Below, piece after piece: positions 39,478 through 40,148 of a stretch of DNA of 40,558 bases. How positions within the stretch are numbered: the stretch's first letter is position 1; each line of letters begins with the position of its first letter. Under the pieces are notes generated by a model. The model searched no databases. It was not told where the DNA came from and worked only from the letters and a program-made list of their open reading frames with translations. The stretch lies in the NCBI GenBank assembly GCA_030684555.1, contig JAUXVN010000122.1, forward strand, positions 1 to 40,558, in the 5' to 3' direction. Origin of the DNA: Ignavibacteria bacterium (lineage in GTDB: Bacteria > Bacteroidota > Ignavibacteria > Ignavibacteriales > Ignavibacteriaceae). The position numbers were made by a program, and so were the translations under genes.

Positions 39478-39566
39478 GGAGAGATGGGTGAGTGGCTGAA
39501 ACCAACGGTTTGCTAAACCGTCGTAGGGGTTATACCTTACCCCGGGTTCGAATCCCGGTCTCTCCG
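39478..39566 (+). tRNA. tRNA-Ser (anticodon GCU)
   Basis: Acceptor stem GGAGAGA (39478-39484) pairs with TCTCTCC (39559-39565). The anticodon arm CGGTTTGCTAAACCG carries GCT, reading AGC/AGT serine codons. A long variable arm typical of tRNA-Ser follows, then T-arm CCGGG-TTCGAAT-CCCGG. Discriminator base G at 39566; CCA is not encoded. Two altered copies of its 3' portion occur downstream. Confidence 0.96.
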
Positions 39567-39578
39567 CAACTAAAGAAG

Positions 39579-39621
39579 AAGCCTCATAAACATCGGAAAT
39601 ACGCTGTTTTGAGGCTTTTTT
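39579..39621 (+). terminator. Intrinsic terminator after tRNA-Ser (T1)
   Basis: AAGCCTCA (39579-39586) pairs with TGAGGCTT (39610-39617), extended by AAACA with TGTTT inside, and followed by a T-run. The same outer arms recur at 40067-40105 after the second tail copy. Confidence 0.85.
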
Positions 39622-39680
39622 ATATCTTACGAACGGGTGCCCCATAGGGGCTGCTGCGCAGGATTCCCGGTCTCTCCGCA
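39620..39680 (+). repeat. Altered copy A of the tRNA-Ser 3' end
   Basis: It matches the tRNA from its variable arm to its 3' end (39528-39568), but the T-loop is replaced by about 22 bases that can form two hairpins, GCCCC/GGGGC and CTGC/GCAG. The final 20 bases (39661-39680, GGATTCCCGG then TCTCTCCGCA) are nearly the same as the tRNA's T-arm 3' side and acceptor. It differs from copy B mainly at the 5' side and in a few bases around 39631-39640. Confidence 0.85.
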
Positions 39681-39687
39681 ACTATTT

Positions 39688-39711
39688 AAGCCCGATTTTT
39701 CGGGCTTTTTT
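39688..39711 (+). terminator. Intrinsic terminator (T2) after tail copy A
   Basis: AAGCCCGA (39688-39695) pairs with TCGGGCTT (39700-39707) with a four-base loop, followed by a T-run. It lies between copy A and the GIY-YIG gene. Confidence 0.85.
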
Positions 39712-39736
39712 ATTATACAAAAATTATTTCCATTTT

Positions 39737-39979
39737 ATGTATTTCACTTACATCTTAAAAAGTAAAAAAACTAATACTTATTATTATGGCTTCACCTCTG
39801 ACTTACAAAAACGATTGGAGCTACACAATTCCGGGAAGTCTAAATATACCAAAAACCGCAGACCATGGATTTTACATTATTTTGAAGAATTTAATACAAA
39901 GGATGAAGCTATCAGTAGAGAAATTTTCTTTAAAAGTATTGACGGATACCGTTGGTTAAAACTCTTTAACATTATTTAA
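39737..39979 (+). CDS. GIY-YIG nuclease domain protein (UPF0213-like)
   Basis: 80 residues, the whole of a single GIY-YIG domain: TYILKSKKTNTYYYGFT (4-20) carries the two namesake motifs as YIL and YYG, the catalytic Arg is in DLQKRLELHNSGKSKYT (Arg26), and the metal-binding Glu in DEAISREIFF (about 57 or 62). The C terminus FKSIDGYRWLK is common in small GIY-YIG proteins of Bacteroidota. Such genes are known to recur near tRNA and rRNA genes. No clear ribosome binding site. It lies between two copies of a tRNA end, so it is best read as the nuclease of a small mobile unit, though not proven. Confidence 0.85.
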   Translation: MYFTYILKSKKTNTYYYGFTSDLQKRLELHNSGKSKYTKNRRPWILHYFEEFNTKDEAISREIFFKSIDGYRWLKLFNII

Positions 39980-39992
39980 TTCATTATTCCCC

Positions 39993-40056
39993 GGTTATAC
40001 CTTACGCACGGGTTCCCCCATAGGGGCTGCTGCGCAGGATTCCCGGTCTCTCCGCA
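39993..40056 (+). repeat. Altered copy B of the tRNA-Ser 3' end
   Basis: It begins with GGTTATACCTTAC exactly as the tRNA variable arm (39528-39540), then has the same insertion in the T-loop as copy A (GGGTTC then CCCC-ATA-GGGG and CTGC-TGC-GCAG hairpins) and ends GATTCCCGGTCTCTCCGCA. It is the better-preserved of the two and shows that the tail copies descend from a tRNA-Ser sequence. Confidence 0.88.
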
Positions 40057-40066
40057 CAATAAAAAT

Positions 40067-40109
40067 AAGCCTCATTAACGATTAAAATATGCGTTTTTGA
40101 GGCTTTTTT
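40067..40109 (+). terminator. Intrinsic terminator (T3) after tail copy B
   Basis: AAGCCTCATTAACG (40067-40080) pairs with CGTTTTTGAGGCTT (40092-40105), followed by a T-run. Its outer arms are the same as those of T1 after the tRNA, but the loop differs. Confidence 0.85.
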
Positions 40110-40148
40110 AATGGGTAACATTCCACCAGATACTAATAAATAAAATTT

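Follow-up and report, generated by a model that had tools for sequence, protein, structure and literature searches.

Small GIY-YIG nuclease genes and hairpin-bearing partial tRNA copies: a probable homing-type unit at bacterial tRNA genes

At the end of the window, i.e. the whole 40,558-nucleotide stretch of an Ignavibacteria bacterium that was analysed, the gene of a small GIY-YIG nuclease lies between two altered copies of the 3' end of a tRNA-Ser gene. As the sequence-only reading of this DNA had suspected, the association recurs: related genes are found beside tRNA genes of many isotypes, together with partial copies of the adjoining tRNA. The arrangement is probably a minimal homing-type selfish unit at tRNA genes, composed of one GIY-YIG gene and a duplicated, disabled piece of tRNA, for which we infer cleavage and homing. 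Such an origin would account for the tRNA adjacency, the co-orientation, the tracking of tRNA isotypes, the empty sites, the tandem arrays and the selection on the protein.

The tRNA-Ser locus and its nuclease

All features of the window locus lie on the forward strand, in the order tRNA-Ser(GCT), terminator, copy A, terminator, GIY-YIG gene, copy B and terminator. The intact tRNA-Ser(GCT), the presumed target gene, occupies 39478..39567 (ARAGORN; Rfam tRNA, 58.4 bits). The three versions of its 3' end described by the sequence-only reading were borne out by alignment: copy A (39620..39680) corresponds to nt 53-90 of the tRNA and copy B (39993..40056) to nt 51-90, and both belong to repeat D2. 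The terminators that had been placed after each version were also found on reading the sequence, as terminator-like stems with T runs following the tRNA (39579..39622, repeat family D1), copy A (39688..39712) and copy B (40067..40110, also D1, resembling the stem after the tRNA). Copies A and B have 46 nt in common at 96% identity, and the 3' flank of copy B matches that of the true tRNA at 78% over 73 nt, tail included. The T loop of both copies holds CCCCATAGGGG and CTGCTGCGCAG, which read as a 22-nt double hairpin (CCCC-ATA-GGGG CTGC-TGC-GCAG in copy A). In copy B, the double hairpin (40016..40037) is inserted between TTC and GA without loss of any tRNA base; in copy A (39640..39661, aligned as 21 nt), GTG precedes the insert, which is one base fewer than in copy B.

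Between the copies, the gene of an 80-residue single-domain GIY-YIG nuclease (39737..39979; Pfam PF01541, E 9e-17) was confirmed as an open reading frame. It is the sole gene there, in agreement with the earlier remark that an integrase is missing: none lies between the tRNA and its 3' copies in the window, and the integrase reading of the window was rejected. An intron reading was likewise rejected, since in Rfam only the tRNA passes the threshold at the locus, and the three matches below it include no intron.

In the AlphaFold model of the window protein (pLDDT 97), all 80 residues form one confident GIY-YIG domain, with no separate DNA-binding domain or linker. No NCBIfam model matched the protein. 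In the structure search, UPF0213 BH0048 was the only match under E 0.001; SLX1 came next, and the I-TevI domain was weaker. As in a homing endonuclease gene, the nuclease domain keeps the conserved catalytic residues: among 197 sequences, Y16, G18 and R26 are each present in 196, H30 is present in all 197, and E62 is present in 187, the remaining 10 being gaps. The median dN/dS of the gene is 0.085 over 85 non-independent pairs and, as judged by this sequence comparison, the GIY-YIG gene is under purifying selection.

Within its own genome, the tail sequence of copies A and B occurs once per copy, at the window locus only. The genome contains two more such loci. At tRNA-Lys (L007), stop codons interrupt what is left of a GIY-YIG gene, which is accompanied by an altered tail; at tRNA-Asn (L010), an altered head copy accompanies a GIY-YIG gene that runs off the end of the contig. 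A GIY-YIG frame with an internal TAG was also seen amid other repeats at L004 (G000:C109), where no tRNA was called nearby. The sequence-only reading had proposed that the tail be searched for in relatives as a flank of GIY-YIG genes next to different tRNAs. This was borne out in part: partial tRNA copies do flank GIY-YIG genes elsewhere, but the exact A/B tail was found only here, being absent from 58 relatives apart from 23 nt of tail B matched in G003 (L012); this match lies inside a 529-aa ORF, which we take to encode an aconitase-like protein, and is regarded as chance. Thus, the units do not share one spreading tail; each carries a copy of its own tRNA.

Recurrence, partial copies and hairpin inserts

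Scanning genome contigs yielded 23 relatives, of which 16, mostly encoded by tRNA-adjacent genes, were combined with the window protein in profile A1. With this profile, 249 of the 395 genomes drawn from the phylum have a relative (E 1e-8), tRNA adjacency being checked there for the best-scoring loci only; in a single other genus, 49 of 61 genomes have one (1e-10). After four loci without a good GIY-YIG match and six repeats were dropped, 153 distinct GIY-YIG sequences were counted in the loci examined, which include ones titled CPR and Verrucomicrobiota. A tRNA lies within 300 bp on the same strand for 126 of them and on the opposite strand for one; the 27 without a same-strand tRNA nearby include seven with less than 400 nt of flank on one side. 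By source, the tRNA-adjacent sequences number 91/104 in the phylum draw (including the window), 18/28 in the second genus, where profile scores are lower, 17/20 in the genome contigs and 0/1 in viral contigs. Because A1 was built mainly from tRNA-adjacent genes and the phylum loci read were the best-scoring ones, these fractions describe the subfamily and not GIY-YIG genes in general.

The single relative obtained by scanning viral contigs with A1 (L175) shows tRNA-like repeats by eye, with no tRNA called. At L086:536-1155, a GIY-YIG gene lies beside a tmRNA gene and is followed by a copy of the tmRNA 3' end in which a double hairpin interrupts the T loop, the tail being read by eye. Related GIY-YIG genes with no tRNA called nearby were also seen at L081 and L082; at L081, the GIY-YIG gene looks, by eye, as if inserted into the gene of a small protein, with 12-bp inverted repeats on both sides.

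Two layouts occur among the 126 tRNA-adjacent cases. In the 3' layout (87/126), the gene lies 3' of the tRNA, starting at a median of 55.5 nt after it, and a tail copy lies beyond the gene; in the 5' layout (39/126), the gene lies 5' of the tRNA and a head copy precedes the gene. Both may meet at one tRNA: at L043:1320-1836, a single tRNA-Ser has a hairpin-bearing head copy upstream, and the gene and a hairpin-bearing tail downstream. At least two GIY-YIG copies are present per locus in 35 of 153 cases. Tandem arrays comprise five units of 450 bp at L065, three of 306 bp at L067 and three of 323 bp at L069, all in one-contig genomes, and arrays of five or six units, with one copy broken, occur in the second genus. 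Judged by this spacing of approximately 300-450 bp, the arrays outside the window hold no integrase, as there is room for the GIY-YIG gene alone. The 5'-end half-copies with the gene upstream, the arrays and the resemblance of the T-loop double hairpin to a dispersed family go beyond what the sequence-only reading had described.

Partial copies were sought in 134 loci that have a tRNA no more than 400 bp away. The neighbouring tRNA is partly duplicated in 121 of them (115 of 128 distinct loci), compared with 1/134 when the tRNA was shuffled and 3/134 when a tRNA of another isotype was used; in the other 13 no copy was detected. The copies begin at many different tRNA positions. An insert of at least 16 nt is present in a copy in 74 of the 134 loci, and four loci gave only alignments spanning the gene. 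The remaining 43 loci have a copy without a long insert; in 31 of these, but not in the other 12, there is a GC-rich perfect hairpin with no counterpart in the tRNA, against a background of 11.6% of 4020 random windows. This GC-filtered test was used in place of a looser hairpin test that 51% of random windows passed.

The 127 inserts of 16-70 nt fall in the T loop (34), the D-loop region (39), the anticodon loop (16) and elsewhere (38, some of which are alignment gaps reaching into the gene). Arm-placed inserts lie mostly in the T loop of tail copies and mostly in the D loop of head copies. The T-loop inserts all lie at the same distance from the tRNA 3' end, 18 nt, and 33 of the 34 fall at TTC^GA. 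Compared with 100 shuffles each, 64 of the 127 inserts fold better than 99 or all of them; the same holds for 5 of 127 control segments. Double 4-3-4 hairpins (4-bp stems and 3-nt loops) make up 26 of the 31 inserts of 22 nt, compared with 1032 of 200000 random 22-mers; 18- and 30-nt versions, with stems of 3 and 6 bp, were also found. In 140 of 141 aligned inserts in tRNA copies, no tRNA base is lost at the gap. Like known double-hairpin elements, the double-hairpin inserts consist of two adjacent short hairpins without a flanking duplication. Head or tail copies with hairpins were also observed where the stretch contains no GIY-YIG gene (L150, L155, L239 and L240), some of them in tandem; L240 has eight double hairpins at 92 bp spacing after a tRNA-Cys.

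Isotype tracking and site occupancy

A tree was built of 126 GIY-YIG proteins from 78 columns, with 71 of its 123 inner branches left open. On this tree, the target isotype changes at least 36 times, compared with 73-85 changes for shuffled labels and 69-82 for labels shuffled within host families, and the host family changes 66 times, compared with 82-97 in shuffles. These counts imply that the GIY-YIG protein tracks both host family and tRNA, the tRNA more strongly. The insertion side follows the tree weakly (25 changes; shuffle minimum 27, within-isotype minimum 25). No link of the disabled arm (D, A or T) with the GIY-YIG clade was found beyond isotype and side (24 changes; shuffle mean 28.7, minimum 23).

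Occupancy was followed, with one genome per species, at one syntenic tRNA-Pro site in one genus, in the best 30 of 150 matching genomes; the gene preceding the site is, judged by its motifs, presumably thioredoxin-reductase-like. The GIY-YIG gene is present in 4/30, downstream of the tRNA in three and upstream in one, and a tail only is present in 1/30; two loci span less than 450 nt downstream, one being the tail-only locus. In the other 25/30, the site is empty, gene and copy both being absent over 600 nt upstream and up to 900 nt downstream. Similarly, the congener G001 has a tRNA-Ser(GCT) identical to that of the window, with no copy and no GIY-YIG gene, at a site matched by an upstream gene that reads as the same receptor gene as in the window. 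The clean empty sites for which the sequence-only reading had asked are present at both the tRNA-Pro site and G001, and most of the checks proposed in that reading turned out in its favour. Among 29 tRNA-Ser(GCT) loci of other genomes of the family, some with short flanks, 5 have a GIY-YIG match and 24 have none. As in a homing gene, the nuclease gene adjoins its presumed target, its occupancy is patchy, and empty alleles are present.

Proposed mechanism, alternatives and related systems

On the homing reading, the nuclease would cut a unit-free tRNA gene of one isotype, and recombinational repair would place the gene 3' or 5' of the tRNA, leaving an intact tRNA and a partial copy; this architecture and the empty sites are directly observed. 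The duplication of the tRNA end would let the host retain a working tRNA. Hairpins, which are themselves directly observed in the D, anticodon or T loops or in place of an arm, would disable the partial copy, so that it would be neither a target any more nor usable as a tRNA. The observed tandem arrays may have come from further rounds or from unequal crossing-over. The idea of the sequence-only reading, cutting at a tRNA tail and copying during repair, is compatible with these data. The T loop may mark the cut, as is suggested by comparing the 18 nt between its insert and the tRNA 3' end with the 23-25 nt between the I-TevI cut and its insertion site (PMC2988022). In T4 homing genes, hairpins control translation (PMC2988022); a similar role of the hairpins is possible in the 5' layout and would not account for the 3' layout.

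Several observations count against the homing reading: 27/153 sequences lack a nearby same-strand tRNA, 13/134 loci lack a copy, 12/43 copies without a long insert lack an added GC-rich hairpin, and 38/127 inserts fall outside the loop classes. The homing reading also gives no account of how the intact, unchanged tRNA is spared, and isotype specificity is puzzling in a protein without a separate DNA-binding domain. A lock model was rejected too: the disabled copy would render loss of the unit lethal, but several copies keep long undamaged outer stretches (L013, L021 and L028).

The strongest alternative concerns the hairpins. Similar double hairpins are also present where neither a tRNA nor a GIY-YIG gene is near, so the hairpins could be passive insertions: independent double-hairpin elements collecting in neutral tRNA remnants, with the nuclease unit still selfish and the hairpins without a role. 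We take this as a serious, if doubtful, possibility. When up to 3 mismatches to the consensus TCCCGAAGGGATCCCTTCGGGA are allowed, dispersed double hairpins are found in 14 of 42 genomes of the family (reversed pattern, 0). A T-loop-like TC^GA junction is seen in 12 of the 51 distinct contexts that were read and is missing from 39, many of which lie away from any tRNA or GIY-YIG gene. The presence of several inserts within one copy (L013, L062 and L136) and of hairpin-bearing tails with no GIY-YIG gene in the stretch (L150 and L155) also fits such elements. On the other hand, 140/141 inserts cost no tRNA base, 34/127 sit at one exact T-loop position, and many copies have an added single hairpin and not a 22-nt insert. 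Nor do the dispersed hairpins show a clear preference for hairpin loops: a stem of at least 5 bp is present in 11 of 51 contexts, several of these being tRNA tails, compared with 11.2% of random positions. Dispersed double-hairpin loci were recorded as L210-L241 in G028, G010, G003, G002 and G000; in G028, consensus-like double hairpins lie several times within a larger repeat (CTCTCTC[..]TAATCTCTCTC).

It is unlikely that the nuclease is instead a structure-selective, SLX1-like enzyme acting on the hairpins or cruciforms as recognition structures that drive duplication, and not as a disabling lesion. UPF0213 and SLX1 are indeed its closest solved structures, and the double-hairpin form is kept while the stem sequence varies (stems of 3, 4 or 6 bp); however, the clades track tRNA isotype, and the hairpins sit in the copy in 5' and 3' layouts alike, in differing forms. 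A host gene that prefers tRNA neighbourhoods, for example for co-transcription, with tRNA remnants nearby by chance, would agree with the purifying selection and the co-orientation with tRNAs. We consider it very unlikely in view of the patchy occupancy, the isotype tracking across host families, the tandem arrays and the copies of the same tRNA in 121/134 loci. Least credible of all is an origin as relics of ordinary integrative elements that used tRNA genes as att sites: the tRNA 3' end is duplicated in the manner of attL/attR, but the GIY-YIG gene stands alone between the window copies, the array spacing of approximately 300-450 bp leaves no room for more, 5'-side units are common (39/126), and the copy starts are spread over many tRNA positions.

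Among known systems that resemble the proposed homing unit, the Allomyces atp6/ORF360 insertion has a nuclease gene that comes with a substitute gene end, which displaces the original one; it concerns a mitochondrial protein gene and not a tRNA, and has no hairpin-disabled copy. The closest system in action is SegB of the T-even phages, a freestanding GIY-YIG homing endonuclease whose gene lies among tRNA genes; it has been reported to cut tRNA-containing DNA and, through recombination, to give rise to tandem [tRNA+segB] repeats (PMC13096335, PMC2988022). SegB is a phage gene, whereas the units described here lie in bacterial genomes, the window protein is a single domain of 80 aa, the units have a partial copy of the adjoining tRNA that mostly bears hairpins, and the clades track isotype. 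GIY-YIG catalysis and the comparable distance of 23-25 nt are shared with I-TevI (PMC2988022), but no intron was found at the window locus, and the window protein has neither linker nor DNA-binding domain. The hairpins resemble the double-hairpin elements of Allomyces mitochondria and related repetitive hairpin-forming elements, which are short, lack flanking duplications and are suspected of mobility (PMC2800124); those elements are mitochondrial and dispersed, whereas the present hairpins are bacterial and include a site-exact subset in the loops of tRNA copies beside a nuclease gene. Finally, the window protein shares the minimal GIY-YIG fold and sequence similarity with the stand-alone UPF0213 and prokaryotic Slx1-like proteins, called minimal GIY-YIG variants in a superfamily survey whose available excerpt mentions no association with tRNA genes (PMC1564403). 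Among open-licence PMC papers, none was found to describe bacterial GIY-YIG units that adjoin tRNA genes and contain tRNA copies.

We regard the unit as a variant of the freestanding homing gene that has a real chance of meriting a separate class. We tentatively suggest that the units might form a class of autonomous selfish elements of approximately 300-450 bp each, in which the nuclease adapts to one isotype, the unit inserts at either end, the host keeps its tRNA, and the leftover piece is a non-cleavable hairpin decoy that seeds arrays. If this were true, they would be among the smallest homing-type elements and would target genes that belong to the best conserved in the cell, and the tRNA genes of the phylum would be host to a minimal parasite that repairs its own damage. 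Tandem repeats and tRNA fragments beside tRNA genes would be explained, and bacterial double-hairpin repeats would be tied to a nuclease. The units would also offer compact isotype-specific nucleases for study, and, through isotype tracking, every GIY-YIG clade would predict its own substrate.
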